Source: a virus. Taken from it: a DNA stretch of 21,987 nucleotides. The first letter of the stretch is position 1. Every line of letters begins with the position of its first letter. This document shows positions 1-21,987 of this stretch, piece after piece. The notes below the pieces were generated by a model. It saw only the letters and a program-made list of their open reading frames with translations. It was not told where the DNA came from and did not search any database. The stretch covers positions 1-21,987 of the IMG/VR virus record IMGVR_UViG_3300014838_000092, one strand, 5' to 3'. Position numbers and translations under genes: made by a program.

Positions 1-2814
1 CCTCGCTGGTACCAAAGAGAGGCTTTGGTATGCACCGCACCACGCAAGATTGATAGATGGGGCCGTGGTCTGGGCAAGGCGCTTTCAATCGACACACCTA
101 TTCCGTCGCCTGACGGTTGGACAATTATGGCCAATCTGAATCCTGGTGATTGGATCTTCGACGACAAAGGACAGCCTACCCAGGTAACCTTCGTTACTGA
201 CATCATGCATGATCGGGTTTGTTACGATGTAGTCTTCTCTGATGGATCAGTTATCACGGCTGATGCTGAGCATCTGTGGGAGACTTGGTCACGTAAGGCG
301 CGCAAGGCAGAAGGCAGGAAGTGGAGGCGTACCGGTAGGTTGGCTCATACACGGCCGTTCAAGAAGCCTTCGGTAGTGACTACTGAAGAGATTCTAGCCA
401 CTCTGTTCGAAGGCAAGGAACACAATCATTCTATCCCTGTGTGCCAGCCGTTGGAATACCCGGAAAGGGATCTGCCAATAGACCCTTATGTATTGGGCGC
501 TTGGTTAGGAGACGGTGGCCACAAGACTGGAACATTCTATACGGCCGATCTGGAGATTCTGGAGGAGTTCGCTTTAGTAGGTGTTGGGAACGATAAGATT
601 GCGGACAAGTACGGCTACGGTATAGGAAAGAAGCCCCAGCAGAGAAACCCAATTACCGGGAGAATAGTCAGCAATGATTCGCTTCATTCCAAGCTGAAGT
701 TACTGGGAGTATCTGGTAACAAGCACGTGCCTCGTCAGTATATGGAAGCTTCAATTGACCAACGCCTAGACCTGCTACAGGGGCTGATGGACACCGACGG
801 CAACATCCGGGCGGATGGATGGGCTGAGTTCGATAACACCAATCGTAGTTTGTCGGAGGCGGTCTTTGAACTGGTGATAAGTCTAGGGATGAAGCCTGTC
901 TTGGACGAGAAGCCTGCTACTTTGTATGGCAAGCCGTGCGCGATGAATTATAGGGTAGGGTTCTTCCCTACTGGACCGGTGTTTCGACTCAAGCGTAAGC
1001 TGGATAGAATCAAGCCTGTAACCAGACCTACTGTAGGACATCGGTACATCGTTGAGGTTAGGGAGCGTTCATCCGTTCCGGTGAAATGCATTCAGGTTAG
1101 CAACGAGAATCACCTCTATCTGGCCGGCCGTGCGTGCATTCCTACCCACAATACCCTTAATGGTGTGTGCGAGGAACTACACCTGTCCCTGACTCGCAAG
1201 AACCTGGATACAGCTATCATCTGTCCGCAGCAGACTCAGGCAGAACAGTGGTATGTGGAGATACTGGACCAGGTTGAGAACTCCCCATCCCTCAACGATG
1301 TCCTGGCCGGACAGAAGCAGTCGCCTTATTACCTGCTGAAGTTCAACAATGGATCCACTATCAAGATCTTCACTGCTGGATCGGGTTCCGGCAAGAAGGG
1401 TGGAGCTATTCGTGGACAGAACCCGCGCCGCATACGAATAGACGAGCAGGACTACTTGGCTGAGGGCGACTACGATGCCATCATGCCGCTGCTACGACGC
1501 TTTAAGGAACTGACCTTCCACGGGTCGTCGACTCCGACCGGTCTGCGCCAGACTTACTATCGTATGTGCCGGATCTTCCCCGACTATCGGGAGTTCTACC
1601 ATCCAATTACTGATCACCCGGAATGGTCGGAGGCCAAGAAGGAAGAGTGCATTCGTGAAGCCAAGACGACCGAGCGTTACCAGCACGAGTATCTGGCCGA
1701 GTTCGGATCTCCGACTGCTGGCGTGTACAAAGGCATCTTTATCGATCGGGTGGCAGACTTTCATCGTCACAGAGAAGTTAAGTGGGATCCTTCCAAGCGG
1801 TACGTAATGGGTGTCGACTGGAATGGCGAAGGCACTGGCACCAGGATCTATATCGTCGAATATGACCCGACTACCAAGAAGCGCCGCACTGTGGATCGTG
1901 CCGTGGTGGATGAAGAAGACGCTACCACAGTGAAGTCCATAGCAGAGATCAAGAGACTCAACAAGAAGTGGATGTGCGATCACATCTACGTAGACGCTGG
2001 ATTCGGTGCTTCCCAGGACGAGTTGATCAAACTGGAAGGGCAAATGGCTGGTAAGGGAGATGCCCAAACCTACAAGCTGAAGAACATACATAAGATCGAC
2101 TTTGGCGGGTCTCTTACCTTCAACAAACTGGTGCCGAACCGAGAGGCTGGAGAGAAGAAGACCAAAGAGTCCGTCAAGGAGGACGAGGAGAAGCGACGGA
2201 CTAAGCCTTTCATGGTGGAAGGCGCGGTAATGGCTCTGGAGCAGGAGCTAATAGAGCTGTCGTTGGATGATGACAAGGTTCTGATCGACCAGATGCGCGG
2301 GTATCGTGTAAAGACTTGGTCTGCACATGGCATGCCAGCCAGTTACGAGACTGATTCTGATACTGGTGATCACGATCACGATGCTTGGGTGCTTGCGATG
2401 CTAGGCATCGAGATCAATTACGGTCTCTATCACACTACTGAATCCGTCCGACGCTTGTCGCAGATCTTTCATGTGGCCAGTTGGGGTGCAGGGCCGGTAG
2501 CAGTGGCTACAGCTGATCCGATGCTATCCGACGAGTCTGTAGTGCTTGAGGATCCCAACCGCAGGGCAATGCGCAACCGTGCCGGCATACCATCCAGGGC
2601 TATCCAGAGCCCTCGTCCCGCTTCACGAGTTGTATATGGTGGAAGAGGAATGGCCTATGTAGCCAGAGATGCGACCGGGAAACAGACAGGCAGGGTTCCT
2701 TCGCGTACAGCATTCTTCCAGCAGGCCAATCTCAAGATCCCAAGTTCTCCATTCAACTCTATTGCCACGGGATTGGTCTTCGGTAAGGGGATGCCATTCG
2801 GGAAAGGGTGGTAA
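1..2814 (+). CDS. terL: Terminase large subunit (5'-partial), interrupted by an intein
   Basis: This is the ATP-driven motor and nuclease that packages phage DNA into the procapsid through the portal. The frame is open from base 1, and residues such as WYQREALVCTAPRK precede the P-loop as in other terminases, so the true start lies upstream; the TTG at 25 is not a convincing start. After removal of the intein (79-1152) the P-loop reads GRGLGK-T. Further landmarks are Walker B IRIDEQDYL (Asp 1441, Glu 1444), the coupling motif GSSTPTG near 1525, and an RNase H-like nuclease with acidic residues in MGVDWNG (1816), YVDAGFG (1993) and DHDHDAW (about 2374-2380). About 579 extein residues are visible. 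A tail of roughly 130 residues after the nuclease is Arg/Gly/Pro rich and of unknown role. The next gene starts 3 bases after the stop. Identification is firm from the motifs; the family assignment is by pattern, not by search. Confidence 0.95.
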   Translation, partial: PRWYQREALVCTAPRKIDRWGRGLGKALSIDTPIPSPDGWTIMANLNPGDWIFDDKGQPTQVTFVTDIMHDRVCYDVVFSDGSVITADAEHLWETWSRKARKAEGRKWRRTGRLAHTRPFKKPSVVTTEEILATLFEGKEHNHSIPVCQPLEYPERDLPIDPYVLGAWLGDGGHKTGTFYTADLEILEEFALVGVGNDKIADKYGYGIGKKPQQRNPITGRIVSNDSLHSKLKLLGVSGNKHVPRQYMEASIDQRLDLLQGLMDTDGNIRADGWAEFDNTNRSLSEAVFELVISLGMKPVLDEKPATLYGKPCAMNYRVGFFPTGPVFRLKRKLDRIKPVTRPTVGHRYIVEVRERSSVPVKCIQVSNENHLYLAGRACIPTHNTLNGVCEELHLSLTRKNLDTAIICPQQTQAEQWYVEILDQVENSPSLNDVLAGQKQSPYYLLKFNNGSTIKIFTAGSGSGKKGGAIRGQNPRRIRIDEQDYLAEGDYDAIMPLLRRFKELTFHGSSTPTGLRQTYYRMCRIFPDYREFYHPITDHPEWSEAKKEECIREAKTTERYQHEYLAEFGSPTAGVYKGIFIDRVADFHRHREVKWDPSKRYVMGVDWNGEGTGTRIYIVEYDPTTKKRRTVDRAVVDEEDATTVKSIAEIKRLNKKWMCDHIYVDAGFGASQDELIKLEGQMAGKGDAQTYKLKNIHKIDFGGSLTFNKLVPNREAGEKKTKESVKEDEEKRRTKPFMVEGAVMALEQELIELSLDDDKVLIDQMRGYRVKTWSAHGMPASYETDSDTGDHDHDAWVLAMLGIEINYGLYHTTESVRRLSQIFHVASWGAGPVAVATADPMLSDESVVLEDPNRRAMRNRAGIPSRAIQSPRPASRVVYGGRGMAYVARDATGKQTGRVPSRTAFFQQANLKIPSSPFNSIATGLVFGKGMPFGKGW
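79..1152 (+). mobile_element. Class 3-type intein with LAGLIDADG homing endonuclease, inserted in the TerL P-loop
   Basis: This in-frame 358-residue intein splits the terminase P-loop between Lys (76-78) and Thr (1153-1155). It starts ALSIDTPIPSPDG (block A, with Ala instead of Cys or Ser) and ends ACIPTHN before the +1 Thr. Block B reads ITADAEHLW, with His 65 and Trp 67 of the intein. Block F reads VKCIQVSNENHLYLAG, with Cys 337; Thr 356 lies in block G. Trp, Cys and Thr at these places form the WCT triplet known from class 3 inteins, which splice from the block F Cys instead of residue 1. The centre holds two dodecapeptide motifs, YVLGAWLGDGG (Asp 145) and LLQGLMDTDGN (Asp 240), so both endonuclease acidic residues are present and homing may still be active. 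Splicing is needed to make a working ATPase. Boundaries are precise because the rejoined extein restores GKT. Class assignment is inferred from motif alignment by eye. Confidence 0.93.
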
Positions 2815-14905: not shown

Positions 14906-17900
14906 ATGGCTCTGCAGTTCGACGCATCGGAGTACTTTACCAAAGCGCAGGTTAGAGCGCTCATACCAGGCCCTCCTGTGGCTCCGGTTGTAACATTGCT
15001 GGATGCCTCCGAAGCTTACATCGATATCCAAGTGACAGCCCCAGTGACACCAACTTGGGCATCTTCAGCGCCGCTCTACATAGTCGGCTATACGATTGAA
15101 TACACCGGTAATGGAAGCTTGGCTAGCGTTTACTTCCTCAATGTGGGGGGCAGTTATCGTATCAATGGGCTAATCCAAGGGGTGTCTTATTCGATCCAGG
15201 TAGCGGCTACTGACTTTCAGGGTCGACAAGGGTCCTTATCAGCTCCACTAGTAGTTTCCACTACGCCAAACACGGTACCGCCGGCTGTACCAGTCTTCAC
15301 AGTAACGGCACTGGCCATTGGAGCACAGATCACGCTCACTACATGGAATACCGAGGTTGACTTTGCCGGCTACGAGTTGTACAGAGATACCAATGCAGCA
15401 TTGGAGAGTGATCTAGCTCTGCTACCTGAGGCTTCTTTCCGGGGGATCAGCTTTACTGATATCGGCTACAGTGTAGGTGGGAATTACTGGTACTACCTAA
15501 AAGCTTCGAACTACTCCGGCCTGACCACTGACTCGGCAATAGTGGGTCCAGTCACGATCACTCCACAGCCGAATCTGGTGGCTGCCGAACTCAGCATGCT
15601 CACTGCCACTGCCGTGGCTAACGGAGACGGCAGCATCACTTTCACCTTCCCGGCAAGTACAGATATACACAGTCCTTACTATCACATATGGAGGCAGTGG
15701 GGAGGAGGGTTGTCTGGCTGGGTCTTGGTGGCTACGCTTCCTCTAGGAGAGCTACCGGTATACGTCGATAACGACACTGTCAGTGGGCTGACGTATCAGT
15801 ATTCGGCTTCGGTGGTGAACACTTACGGGGAGTCTGCTTTCGACACGTTGAATGCCCCTAAAGCCACGGCTGAGGACACCACAGCTCCGACAAGCGTCGT
15901 CAGCAACATAGCTTATTCCGGCACTCTGGGAGGAATCAATGTAACATGGGACGCAACAGAAGATCCCAACACAGCGTACTACATTATCCACTGGAGGTAT
16001 TACCAGACAGGTGGGTATAGTGCCTTCAACTCTGGTGAAGCGGTGATTACCAACTCGGATCTGTTGGATGGGTTGGAAGATCCTGTTACTACCTATCCAC
16101 CTACAAGGGATGCGCTTGCCAATGAGTTTGAAGTAGAGATTGCACCAGTCAACAGTAATAATGTGGCGGCGGCTTTCGTCTCGCGACGCGACACTGACGG
16201 TAATAGAGTACCTGTCGAGTATCCTGAGCTGAACAACTACCAACCGGCCGGTAATATACCTCCTGCCCCTCCGACCATGTTGGCTCCGACTATCAATCCA
16301 GACAACTCTATTGTTATCAATTGGAGCGCTTTAGGTATATCTACGCAGTACGGGTTCAAGATTGAGAAATTGATAAGCCCTGCCGTTATATGGGAGAACC
16401 TGCAGATCGTCGCAGACTCGACCGGAGGAACGAAGGCATACACAGCTACAGGTCTCGAGCCATACAAGTTCCGTAGCACTACATACACTTTCCGCGTAGC
16501 TACTGTAGACAACTCCGGCAATGTAAGCACTTGGGTCTCTACTGCAGCCTTGTCCGCAGTAGACACCACCGGTCCGGTGGCCTACACTTCTGGGTTTGCT
16601 GCGACTCCGGCTCTGGGATCCTTCCAGCTTAACTGGACCAACGGCACGGACCAGAGTTACTTCAGTTGTGTGTATGAGATCTGGAGGAAGCAGACAGCTT
16701 CGACCGCGCCTGGGTTCGTACCAGATTCACTGCTGATTAAGATAGTGGAAGTCTCTGGCACTTCCGACGGCAAGGCCAATACCTGGACGGATCTCAGCCC
16801 AACCATCAATAACAAAGTCACAGCTATCTTTGCTCTCCGGTCGGTAGACCGGTATGGCAATGGGCAGGTAGATGGGTCTGGGAATCCTATCTATCTGGCT
16901 ACATTGGCTGCGCAAACATCACTCGATATAGCGGATGTGAATATCGCCACATTGAGCGAGGTGGCAGCGCTCACGGTGACAGTCGAGGCTGCTGAGGCAG
17001 AGTTAGCGAACATTGCCAGTTCGAATGTGCTTAGCTCAGGAAACAAGGCTGCCGTAATTATGCTCTACACCAATATAGTCAATGCGCAGCCTGGTATAGA
17101 CGAGCAAGCAGAGTCATTTGGGATCACTACCGAGAGGACCACCTATGATAACTCTATCGGCAGCCTGACAGCTTACTTGTCAACCCTGACTACCCCAACT
17201 GCGTGGGATGTGACGCCAGGAGACACAACTATTGTAGGGACAGTCTTCCAGGCCAACTTCGTTGCTGTGTATTCAGCAGAGCAAACTCTTCTCAATGCCA
17301 TTGCTGGAGCATCTCTACTGCTAATCAATACTGCAACCGAATCAGCCGCTACCGCGACTGCTGAAGCGGCATCCGCTACTGCAGCTGCAGCCGCTGCTAC
17401 GGCACTCTTGGCTGAGATAACAGGAACCACTGTCCTGACTCCGGCAGAGAAGATGCAGCTGATTCCGGACTACGATGCTTTGGTAATAGACTGGGATGGC
17501 GGTGTTGGGTTGTACGATACGCAGGCTGCCGCTGTGGGTGTTTCGACGGCCGCATACGATGCGGCAATGACCAGTCTTGTCGCTGATGTGGCAGTTTTGG
17601 GCAGCACGTTCTTGGACTTTGCTGTGAATACCCCGATGACTGGTGCAGTAACAGGCACTGTCCTTGCCTCTGACTTTGAGGCAGTATACACGGCCCAAGA
17701 CGCATTGCTAGCCGCTATTGTTACGGCCATCAACGCTACAGCACAGACTGCATTGACAGGATCGATCGATGCAGCAGCTTCTGCTGCTGCTGCTATGGCT
17801 CTTGCAGAGAGTGCGATTGGCAAGGTTTTGGTCGTTACCGCTATGCCTGCCGCCACCACAGTCGCTGCCGGTAACTTCGTGTACCTGACAGTAACCGACG

Positions 17901-18643
17901 GTTCTTATGCGCCTGGCCTTTATGAATCTACTGGAGCTATCTGGACCCAGGGTAGTATTCAGGCTTCCTTGATCGTCGGGCAGATTATAGCTGGACAGAT
18001 AGCAGCCGGAGCAGTCACGGCCGAAGCGATCGCCGCCGGAGCAATCACGGCCGGTGCTATTGCTGCCGGTGCTGTGACAGCAGGTAAAATAGCTGTCGGG
18101 GCTGTAACTGCCACCATGATCACTACTGGCACACTCGATGCCTCTCTCGTAGACGTGGTCAATCTAAACGCCGCCAATATCACTACTGGCACGATGAGCG
18201 CAAACATGATTCTGTTTCCGGACGGCTCGGAGATGAGCACGGCCAGCCGTGTGATTACCTCGTCGGCTAACGCGGCCGTGACAACTGGCTATACGTACTT
18301 CCTCGTTCCAGCTTCATGGTCCGCGATCAACGGCTTAGGTTGGTCAACGACCTCCTCTGGAGCTAGTGACACGTTTAATATCCAGGCATCGATCATAGGT
18401 ACCGGGCAAGGCGTTACTATTAACTTAGCCATAGTAGTCGACGGAAACACTTCGACTTTGTATGGGAACGTGGCAATAGGTACTCCGTCGGGCTCGGGAG
18501 CTGAGTTCACGGCCCCGTTCTTCGCCTCTATCACTGGGCTGTCTGCCGGATCACACACCATCAGGATCTACGCTATCGCTTCCATGTCAGACACGGTTTC
18601 GATCCAGACAACAAGCTATGCTATCTGCCAGCGCATCTACTAA
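14906..18643 (+). CDS. Giant fibronectin type III fibre/host-specificity protein, 1245 aa
   Basis: This protein is assembled from repeated modules and is probably a central fibre or receptor-contact protein. Residues about 20-667 contain some six fibronectin type III-like domains (starting near 22, 123, 222, 327, 450 and 552), each with strand patterns such as YIVGYTIEYTGNG or ITLTTWNTEVDFAGYELYRD. Two divergent helical repeats follow, about 135 residues apart (SSNVLSSGNKAAVIMLY near 705, GTTVLTPAEKMQLIPDYDAL near 840); this type is known from tail-tip J-like proteins. An Ala-rich helix lies between them. Then comes a short beta segment, a run of IAAGAVTA-type repeats (1026-1075), and a beta-rich C-terminal domain ending SYAICQRIY, which could be the receptor-binding tip. 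The gene is followed 9 bases later by the 112-aa gene. Family membership is by pattern only. Confidence 0.88.
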   Translation: MALQFDASEYFTKAQVRALIPGPPVAPVVTLLDASEAYIDIQVTAPVTPTWASSAPLYIVGYTIEYTGNGSLASVYFLNVGGSYRINGLIQGVSYSIQVAATDFQGRQGSLSAPLVVSTTPNTVPPAVPVFTVTALAIGAQITLTTWNTEVDFAGYELYRDTNAALESDLALLPEASFRGISFTDIGYSVGGNYWYYLKASNYSGLTTDSAIVGPVTITPQPNLVAAELSMLTATAVANGDGSITFTFPASTDIHSPYYHIWRQWGGGLSGWVLVATLPLGELPVYVDNDTVSGLTYQYSASVVNTYGESAFDTLNAPKATAEDTTAPTSVVSNIAYSGTLGGINVTWDATEDPNTAYYIIHWRYYQTGGYSAFNSGEAVITNSDLLDGLEDPVTTYPPTRDALANEFEVEIAPVNSNNVAAAFVSRRDTDGNRVPVEYPELNNYQPAGNIPPAPPTMLAPTINPDNSIVINWSALGISTQYGFKIEKLISPAVIWENLQIVADSTGGTKAYTATGLEPYKFRSTTYTFRVATVDNSGNVSTWVSTAALSAVDTTGPVAYTSGFAATPALGSFQLNWTNGTDQSYFSCVYEIWRKQTASTAPGFVPDSLLIKIVEVSGTSDGKANTWTDLSPTINNKVTAIFALRSVDRYGNGQVDGSGNPIYLATLAAQTSLDIADVNIATLSEVAALTVTVEAAEAELANIASSNVLSSGNKAAVIMLYTNIVNAQPGIDEQAESFGITTERTTYDNSIGSLTAYLSTLTTPTAWDVTPGDTTIVGTVFQANFVAVYSAEQTLLNAIAGASLLLINTATESAATATAEAASATAAAAAATALLAEITGTTVLTPAEKMQLIPDYDALVIDWDGGVGLYDTQAAAVGVSTAAYDAAMTSLVADVAVLGSTFLDFAVNTPMTGAVTGTVLASDFEAVYTAQDALLAAIVTAINATAQTALTGSIDAAASAAAAMALAESAIGKVLVVTAMPAATTVAAGNFVYLTVTDGSYAPGLYESTGAIWTQGSIQASLIVGQIIAGQIAAGAVTAEAIAAGAITAGAIAAGAVTAGKIAVGAVTATMITTGTLDASLVDVVNLNAANITTGTMSANMILFPDGSEMSTASRVITSSANAAVTTGYTYFLVPASWSAINGLGWSTTSSGASDTFNIQASIIGTGQGVTINLAIVVDGNTSTLYGNVAIGTPSGSGAEFTAPFFASITGLSAGSHTIRIYAIASMSDTVSIQTTSYAICQRIY
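17981..18130 (+). repeat. IAAGAVTA-type octapeptide repeats in the fibre gene
   Basis: Codons for QIIAGQIAAGAVTAEAIAAG and its continuations repeat an 8-residue unit (about six copies, consensus A-I-A-A-G-A-V/I-T). This is the kind of repeat that forms a beta-helical or triple-stranded stalk in phage tail-tip proteins, immediately before a TTGTLDA-type segment. The copies differ in third codon positions, so they are old. Confidence 0.8.
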
Positions 18644-19924: not shown

Positions 19925-20000
19925 CGAAGTTATTGTGATAGACGCGCACTTAGGTCAAGTGGCGTGGAACAAGGGCGTGAAGCAGGGAGTTAAGCAGTGA
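19899..20000 (+). CDS. Candidate 33-aa mini-ORF coupled to the next gene
   Basis: The ATG at 19899 lies inside the end of the collagen-fibre gene, and the frame covers the 72-base gap before the next gene, ending in TGA that overlaps the following GTG start (GTGA). The product, with VIVIDAHLGQVAWNKGVKQG at its core, is basic and soluble. No good ribosome site precedes the ATG, so it may be chance; the stop-start overlap is the only positive sign. Without it, the gap at 19925-19996 contains nothing I recognise other than the AGGGAG ribosome site of the next gene. Confidence 0.22.
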   Translation: MEALGGFTSEVIVIDAHLGQVAWNKGVKQGVKQ

Positions 20001-21987
20001 GCTACATCGAAACCGTAAGACTAGAAGACGGCAGCGGCAATCCGATCTCCTCAACAAGCGGAAGCCTGAATGTGGAGGTCAGCAACCCTCAGGTTCCGCC
20101 CACAGCAGCGGCCATTGGCACAGCCGTAGCTGCGGCTATTCCCGACCCGCTCCCTGTTTCTGGTACAGTCACCGCCAACATCACCGCCGGCTCGGTGGAA
20201 GTTACAAACTACACCGACATCAACGGTACACACAGACTTCTGGTAGACGGCTCTGGAGTGACACAGCCCATATCGGGAACTGTGGCCATCTCATCTGTGG
20301 CTAGCGCTGTGGAAGTTGTCAACAACTCGGACATCAACGGCACTCACCCGCTTCTGGTAGATGGGTCAGGAGTAACACAGCCAGTATCGGGAACTGTGGC
20401 CGTATCTTCTGTCGGCGGTACGGTTGCTGTTTCTGGTGCCTACCAGGCTACGCAGCCGGTGAACAGCATGCAGCTTCCCGCTGCTCTCGGCACACAAACC
20501 GCCGCAAACTCGTTGGCTGTCACCCTTCCAACTGGTGTAATCACATCACTGACTCCACCGACCCCGGTTACAGCAGCCGCAATCGGATCAGCCGTGAGCG
20601 CGGCTCTCGCTAACCCACTTCCTGTCACCGGCACGATAGCCTCCACTGTGAGCGGTTCTGTCACGGCGAACCAGGGCACACCGGCTGTTCTTGCGAACGC
20701 ATGGCCTGCGGAGATCGTCGTCTCCAGCGCGGTCATCGACCCGCGTTCCATTCGTGCTCTTACTTCCGCTGATGTAGTTTCCCTGCCTTCTGCGACGGTG
20801 ACCGCTCTTACTCCACCCACTCCGGTAACTGCGGCTGCGATTGGCTCGGCTGTATCTGCCGCTCTGACCAACCCACTGCCGGTTTCGTTGCCGGCAGCGA
20901 CAGTAACAACCCTGACTCCGCCTACTGCGGCATCCATTGGAATAGCAGTCGCTGCTCCCACAGCGGCTGCGATTGCAAGCTCCATTGTCGGCAATCCACC
21001 GACGACACCGTTGCCGACCGCTCAGGTCACAACACTCACGCCGCCCACCGCTGCGGCAATCGGTACTGCGGTGTCCGCTGACTTGCTCACAGGCACGCAA
21101 CTTGCATCAGCGAGCGTTCCGGTTGCCCTGCCGACCGCAACTGTCACTTCGCTTACTCCACCGACAGCCGCTGCAATTGGTACTGCTGTAGCCGCCCCGA
21201 CCGCTGTGACTATCGCCTCTGCGATAGTCTCCAATCCACCGACCACACCACTTCCCACTGCACAGGTCACTACGCTGACACCGCCGACTGCGGCAGCCAT
21301 TGCAGCAGCCATTGCGGCAGCAGTGGTAAACCAACCCACCGACGTGGCTCAGTGGGGTGGAACCGCAGTTGCTGCTCCAGTCTCGTTTGGCACCTCTCCG
21401 ACAGGAACGGTAGGCACAATCACTACCTACAACACAACGGGCGTAACCACCCCAGCCGACATCGCGTTTGACGGTTCGGGCAATGTCTGGATTGCTGGTA
21501 ACGCCGTCATCCTTCAGATGTCCCCAACTGGCACGGTTTTGCAAACCATTGCGGTAACCGGCAATCTTCGCGGTATAGCCATCGACGCGACCGGAAACGT
21601 TTGGGTGGGCAATAACACGGTCTCGGGCGTTATCGAGTACACATCGGCTGGTGCGCTCGTCAACACCTACACGCCAACCGGGATCAATGGGCCTCGCAGA
21701 ATCGCCTTCGACAGCATTGGCAACCTATGGGTTCCCAACTCAAGCGGAAGCTCGATGCTGAAACTCAGTTCAGCGGGTGCCCTCCTCGCAACAGTTACAG
21801 TAGGCAGTGCCCCCCAAGGATTAGCGATTGACGCATCCAACAACGTTTGGGTGACTGTCTCCAACACGAACAGCGTTGTCAAGGTCAACACAGCCGGAAC
21901 CGTGGTGGGCACCTACCCCGTTGGCACAGGCCCCAATTGCGTGGCTATCGACCAAAACGGGAACATTTGGGTGGCGAACACTACAAG
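19997..21987 (+). CDS. Repeat-stalk protein with NHL/Vgb-like beta-propeller (3'-partial)
   Basis: GTG 19997 follows AGGGAG (19984-19989) with a 7-base spacer, and the frame stays open for 663 codons to the window edge. Residues 1-66 start SYIETVRLEDGSGNPISS, a short beta N-terminus. Two tandem 38-residue repeats (VEV-N-DINGTH-LLVDGSGVTQ) follow at 67-142. Residues about 177-450 are Ala/Thr/Pro/Val stalk repeats with the core LTPPTAAAIGTAV in six variants. From about residue 476 five blades of a beta-propeller follow, each with a motif like LRGIAIDATGNVWVGN, spaced 38-42 residues. This pattern is typical of NHL repeats and Vgb-type (virginiamycin B lyase-like) propellers; enzyme activity cannot be inferred. 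It is probably a surface fibre whose propeller binds or modifies a host glycan or other ligand. C- and G-ending codons appear more frequent than in the preceding gene, a possible sign of separate origin. Confidence 0.87.
   Translation, partial: MSYIETVRLEDGSGNPISSTSGSLNVEVSNPQVPPTAAAIGTAVAAAIPDPLPVSGTVTANITAGSVEVTNYTDINGTHRLLVDGSGVTQPISGTVAISSVASAVEVVNNSDINGTHPLLVDGSGVTQPVSGTVAVSSVGGTVAVSGAYQATQPVNSMQLPAALGTQTAANSLAVTLPTGVITSLTPPTPVTAAAIGSAVSAALANPLPVTGTIASTVSGSVTANQGTPAVLANAWPAEIVVSSAVIDPRSIRALTSADVVSLPSATVTALTPPTPVTAAAIGSAVSAALTNPLPVSLPAATVTTLTPPTAASIGIAVAAPTAAAIASSIVGNPPTTPLPTAQVTTLTPPTAAAIGTAVSADLLTGTQLASASVPVALPTATVTSLTPPTAAAIGTAVAAPTAVTIASAIVSNPPTTPLPTAQVTTLTPPTAAAIAAAIAAAVVNQPTDVAQWGGTAVAAPVSFGTSPTGTVGTITTYNTTGVTTPADIAFDGSGNVWIAGNAVILQMSPTGTVLQTIAVTGNLRGIAIDATGNVWVGNNTVSGVIEYTSAGALVNTYTPTGINGPRRIAFDSIGNLWVPNSSGSSMLKLSSAGALLATVTVGSAPQGLAIDASNNVWVTVSNTNSVVKVNTAGTVVGTYPVGTGPNCVAIDQNGNIWVANTT
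20195..20422 (+). repeat. Tandem 114-bp (38-codon) repeat, two copies
   Basis: Copies are at 20195-20308 and 20309-20422. Both encode a unit with DINGTH, LLVDGSGVTQP and SGTVA. Identity is highest around ATCGGGAACTGTGGCC, identical in both copies. The unit is in frame, so copy-number change would lengthen the stalk without breaking the gene. Confidence 0.85.
20888..21310 (+). repeat. 240-bp (80-codon) stalk repeat, two copies
   Basis: A unit starting LPAATVTTLTPPTAA at 20888 recurs exactly 240 bases later at 21128 (LPTATVTSLTPPTAA), including the shared inner segment NPPTTPLPTAQVTTLTPPTA. Similarity fades at about 21310. Earlier related copies start near 20525 and 20783 (258 bases apart). 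Many synonymous differences show the duplication is not recent. Confidence 0.8.
21452..21987 (+). other. Five NHL/Vgb-like beta-propeller blades (continuing past the window)
   Basis: Aspartates of the repeating A-I/F-D motif are encoded at 21470, 21584, 21710, 21830 and 21950, giving spacings of 38, 42, 40 and 40 residues. Each is followed by GN-x-W (Trp in every blade). NHL and Vgb propellers usually have six or seven blades, so one or two more are expected beyond the window. Confidence 0.8.

Follow-up and report, generated by a model that had tools for sequence, protein, structure and literature searches.

A class 3 intein with a predicted LAGLIDADG endonuclease between the Walker A lysine and threonine of a phage terminase

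Introduction

The large terminase subunit (TerL) encoded at the start of a virus fragment in IMG/VR is interrupted, in frame and exactly between the Lys and the Thr of its Walker A motif (GRGLGK^T), by an insert of 358 amino acids that has the residue signature of class 3 inteins and a predicted HINT fold, and whose site is empty in the closest relatives. Taken together, we consider it very probable that the insert is a mobile class 3 intein, with a LAGLIDADG homing endonuclease, in the TerL of a tailed phage. The fragment, here called the window, is the whole stretch of DNA analysed (21,987 bases) and carries a phage structural module of terminase, portal, major head protein and tail genes.

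Class 3 inteins have no nucleophile at position 1 and are defined by a Trp at B:12, a Cys at F:4 and a Thr at G:5, the WCT triplet (PMC5050341). An earlier note on this DNA had described them as a minority class, which is true, but they are not rare, as a 2020 survey counted 1701 of them, with LAGLIDADG motifs in 82.5% (PMC7891396).

Position and boundaries of the intein

The TerL frame (1-2814, + strand) is a single open frame of 937 amino acids that is open at its 5' end and lacks a start because the record begins inside the gene. Specifically, it incorporates the split Walker A motif, the Walker B sequence IRIDE and a C-extein that matches terminase large subunit PHROG 2 (E 2.2e-17), and it lies upstream of, and on the same strand as, genes for a portal (PHROG 9232, E 3.5e-32) and a major head protein (PHROG 3922, E 4.7e-19). 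Further along the window, positions 14906-18643 encode a protein of 1245 residues that contains fibronectin type III domains and also matches central tail fibre J (PHROG 31). The last frame (19997-21987) is cut by the end of the record; its C-terminal part matches NHL/SGL beta-propeller families and is preceded by a long, repetitive Ala/Pro/Thr-rich region, and it is probably a tail or fibre protein. The features of the TerL frame are collected in Table 1.

Table 1. Features of the interrupted TerL frame, with positions in the window
Feature	Position	Strand	Basis
N-extein of TerL (its last 26 residues), ending in Walker A GRGLGK (61-78)	1..78	+	
Class 3 intein with LAGLIDADG endonuclease, 358 aa	79..1152	+	Solved homologues, profile, empty site, AlphaFold model
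Ala1, non-nucleophile at intein position 1	79..81	+	Ala in 161/172 relatives
Cys48, equivalent to Cys48 of M. smegmatis DnaBi1	220..222	+	Alignment; PMC6195587; Cys in 162/172 relatives
Block B DxxHxW (Asp62, His65, Trp67)	262..279	+	Same numbering as Asp62/His65/Trp67 of M. smegmatis DnaBi1 (PMC6195587)
LAGLIDADG homing endonuclease domain (predicted)	472..978, limits approximate	+	Alignment; PI-SceI-like model; Pfam LAGLIDADG_3, E 0.007
Predicted catalytic Asp145, in LGAWLGDG	511-513	+	Asp in 164/172 relatives
Predicted catalytic Asp240, in LLQGLMDTDG	796-798	+	Asp in 164/172 relatives
Block F Cys337, predicted first nucleophile	1087..1089	+	Alignments with solved inteins and relatives
Block G Thr356-His357-Asn358 (THN)	1144..1152	+	Alignments with solved inteins and relatives
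C-extein of TerL, stop included	1153..2814	+	PHROG 2 match; relatives L002-L005 86-62% identical
+1 Thr, the Walker A Thr of TerL, predicted second nucleophile	1153..1155	+	Frame reading; junction in L002
Walker B IRIDE, in the C-extein	1432-1446	+	Frame reading

The limits of the insert were checked with a profile and with an empty relative, and both agree with the comparison with solved structures given below. A profile built from 172 class 3 relatives, the window intein excluded, gives a full-length match to frame residues 27-384, which correspond to positions 79-1152 (E 4.9e-134). It finds no other frame of the window at E<1, and neither of two class 1 TerL controls, from phages KLEB27-3 and ME3, reaches E 1. 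Moreover, the closest TerL (L002, 86% identical) is intein-free, and when its DNA is aligned with the window a single gap covers 79-1152, exactly 1074 bases, flanked by 65/78 and 78/90 identical bases. Where the window has its N-extein, L002 encodes ARWYQREALVCTAPRKIDRWGRGLGK, and across the junction it reads GRGLGK-TLNGVCEELHL. The site is also empty, at the same codon, in L003, L004 and L005, whose TerLs are 70-62% identical. The gap in L002 and the GRGLGK^T reading bear out the earlier proposal that the insert separates the Lys and the Thr of the P-loop of a phage terminase. No second copy of the window intein itself was found. Its G+C content (51%) is close to that of the C-extein (54%), so there is no sign of recent arrival in its base composition. 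Pfam and NCBIfam on their own would have missed the intein.

Residues that define the class

Comparison with solved structures using phmmer identified two class 3 DnaB inteins, that of M. smegmatis (6BS8, E 8.5e-28) and that of M. chimaera (6RIX, E 4.8e-27), with alignments that span intein residues 1-70 and 324-358. Like the window intein, both have Ala1, Cys48, Asp62, His65, Trp67, a block F Cys and Thr-His-Asn, and the Trp, the Cys and the THN are in register. They differ from it in being far shorter (139-145 residues as opposed to 358) and in their host protein, which is bacterial DnaB rather than TerL; the M. smegmatis DnaBi1 intein also has no endonuclease (PMC6195587). The other residues expected of a class 3 intein are present as well (His65 of block B, the C-terminal His357-Asn358 and, where a +1 Cys, Ser or Thr is expected, a Thr), and block B has Asp62 at the position of its usual Thr, as in M. 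smegmatis DnaBi1 (PMC6195587).

Trp67, Cys337 and Thr356 are invariant across 15 aligned phage sequences. His65, Trp67, Cys337, Thr356 and Asn358 are all invariant in the 172 relatives, where conservation of the Trp is partly ascertained since it formed part of one search pattern by which these sequences were gathered, the Cys, Thr and Asn lying outside the patterns. An alignment check proposed in the earlier note gave a clear answer, in that Trp67, Cys337 and Thr356 share columns with the W, C and T of 6BS8 and 6RIX. The class 3 assignment made there (Ala1, WCT) thus stands, and its numbering of A1, H65, W67, C337 and T356 is exact, with H357 and N358 next in the chain.

Class 2 inteins (KlbA type) also begin with Ala1. 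This shared residue is what would favour an intein of class 2, in which the +1 residue attacks directly, or one of class 1 with an altered first residue; we give such readings a negligible chance, because the block F Cys, the block B Trp and the block G Thr are all there, block B has Asp62 and not Thr, as in class 3, and the class 3 profile matches from end to end and misses the class 1 controls. On the basis of the WCT residues, Asp62 and this profile the class 1 and class 2 assignments are rejected.

Predicted fold and the endonuclease

The AlphaFold model of the intein has a mean pLDDT of 90.1 and is predicted to adopt a HINT fold (Z 21.4 to 6BS8). The modelled splicing domain superimposes on 6BS8 at 1.2 Å over 125 residues with 47% identity, and on 6RIX at 1.6 Å over 129 residues, identity to the two structures ranging from 45 to 47%, while the modelled whole chain resembles PI-SceI (Z 25-27). 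The Pfam LAGLIDADG_3 match falls under the curated cut-off, and the evidence for an endonuclease is consequently the alignment together with the model. Since both LAGLIDADG motifs are present with Asp145 and Asp240, the endonuclease between the two splicing halves looks intact.

It might be argued that the intein has decayed and that splicing or homing has been lost, and one class 3 pseudogene, Arthrobacter Arth_1007, is known (PMC3196547). However, the window has a single open frame in which the splicing residues and both endonuclease Asp residues are intact, the rest of TerL is open with its Walker B present, and a TerL intein unable to splice should be lethal, so that decay is hardly credible.

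Splicing and the packaging motor

We infer the splicing chemistry, the endonuclease activity and the need for splicing before ATP can be used from the comparison with characterised inteins. In the proposed sequence of events the TerL precursor would be translated straight through the insert and Cys337 would attack the bond preceding Ala1, as in the published class 3 pathway (PMC5050341; PMC7891396), so that the N-extein chain could be transferred to the +1 Thr. Cyclisation of Asn358 and formation of a peptide bond between the exteins would then give ...GRGLGKT... and restore the ATPase. A start at the block F Cys, as the earlier note had it, is the expected mechanism given these residues. For its part, the endonuclease would spread the intein gene by cutting TerL alleles that, like L002, have no intein. 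The TerL inteins of mycobacteriophages are reported to be splicing competent and some to be endonuclease active (PMC5050341).

Before splicing, the Lys and the Thr of the P-loop are 358 residues apart, and proper ATP binding by the motor would not be expected. Insertion inside the P-loop thus supports the earlier suggestion that the packaging motor would be inactive in the precursor. A further step, which the earlier note rightly marked as inference, is to suppose that conditional splicing serves as a timing switch for packaging, for example through an oxidation that joins Cys48 to Cys337 or through a metal bound at Cys337. It is true that Cys48 and the block F Cys match the two cysteines that are redox-active in M. 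smegmatis DnaBi1, in which H2O2 reversibly inhibits splicing and oxidation links Cys48 to the catalytic Cys (PMC6195587), and that in published assays the TerL precursor was slightly up in oxidising E. coli cells (PMC5050341). However, the class 3 TerL inteins of phages Bethlehem (gp10) and Gaia (gp2) proceeded quickly to ligated extein in E. coli (Kelley et al., 2016; PMC5050341), TerL relatives 86-62% identical do without an intein, and the P-loop GK^[S/T] is simply the usual site of these mobile inteins (157/172). Cys48, moreover, is found in 162/172 relatives and is needed for DnaBi1 splicing itself, so its presence is no sign of regulation. A packaging switch is thus disfavoured on this analysis and conditional splicing in general appears very unlikely; the specific form in which oxidation or a metal at Cys337, with Cys48 as partner, would delay splicing, so that the motor would not come on before the late phase of infection or outside a reducing cell, we regard as slightly less likely still. 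Splicing of the window intein would most likely be constitutive and fast. A switch, if proven, would matter.

Relatives and repeated use of the P-loop

The insertion site is GK^[S/T] in 157 of the 172 nearest relatives, whose hosts are phage and bacterial ATPases, and four of these lie in TerLs homologous to that of the window. When viral_contigs was searched directly with the single intein sequence no relatives were returned, which reflects a limit of that method, as an alignment-based search of the same collection gave 575 related sequences; with tblastn, inteins related to it turned up in 711 public phage records. Tori and Perler reportedly widened the class 3 definition in 2011 and proposed a phage origin.

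The inteins nearest in arrangement are found in several TerLs. Those of Vibrio phage 489E54-1, Synechococcus phage B23, Escherichia phage MIZ4 and Stenotrophomonas phage SOVA965 are, like the window intein, of class 3, at GK^T/S and with an endonuclease; they are 34-40% identical to it, and their TerLs gave no match when compared with the window TerL. In the IMG/VR sequences L036, L052, L062 and L087 a class 3 intein occupies GK^T/S of a homologous TerL, with exteins 27.7-28.6% identical and, for the first three, inteins 43-45% identical to that of the window. Identity to the Gaia and Nebkiss inteins is about 37%. The mycobacteriophage TerL inteins also lie in the TerL ATPase domain (Kelley et al., 2016; PMC5050341). 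There, TerL1-a occupies the same P-loop Lys^Thr as the window intein, described as the "classic" P-loop site, while the class 3 examples TerL1-c, -d and -e occupy other sites in a different TerL family (PMC5050341).

Distant TerL homologues carry other inteins in the same motif. The TerL of Bacillus phage KLEB27-3 (L022) is interrupted at this same GK^T by an apparent class 1 intein, and that of Acinetobacter phage ME3 (L020) by an apparent class 1 mini-intein whose site lies three residues upstream (GRR^TGKT), the class being read from sequence (Cys1, block F Asp and C-terminal His-Asn), while the TerL of Moorella phage MTATph1, also a distant homologue, is intein-free. On this reading these cases, together with the class 3 inteins of L036, L052, L062 and L087, show that the P-loop of distant TerL homologues has been struck repeatedly by different inteins. 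The annotation tables of the KLEB27-3 and ME3 records leave the intein unmentioned.

The TerL of L087 (IMG/VR 3300035181_001638) has two apparent inteins, the first class 1-like and ending ...FIANGIITHN^CSAKRKV, the second of class 3 and placed a few residues downstream at GRRTGK^SFA. Separately, the P-loop inteins of Acidovorax phage ACF1 TerL (L015, 460-1512), L089 and L092 combine Cys1 with the class 3 block F Cys and THN, and in principle their splicing could start from either Cys.

As regards descent, a quick tree placed the window intein beside those of L024 and L033, which lie in other TerLs, with a support of 91 that was not starred and is modest. A tree that grouped it with the inteins of L036, L052, L062 and L087 had a higher likelihood than the quick tree (p-AU 0.727). 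The same-family grouping is thus not rejected, and we make no claim of an independent jump into the window TerL.

Discussion

The window intein is ordinary, and many close examples are already known; it leaves the known picture of inteins and of packaging unchanged. With filled and empty alleles of one TerL family now in hand, a test of homing would be easy. The intein is one further well-supported instance of P-loop occupation, a known habit of class 3 inteins.
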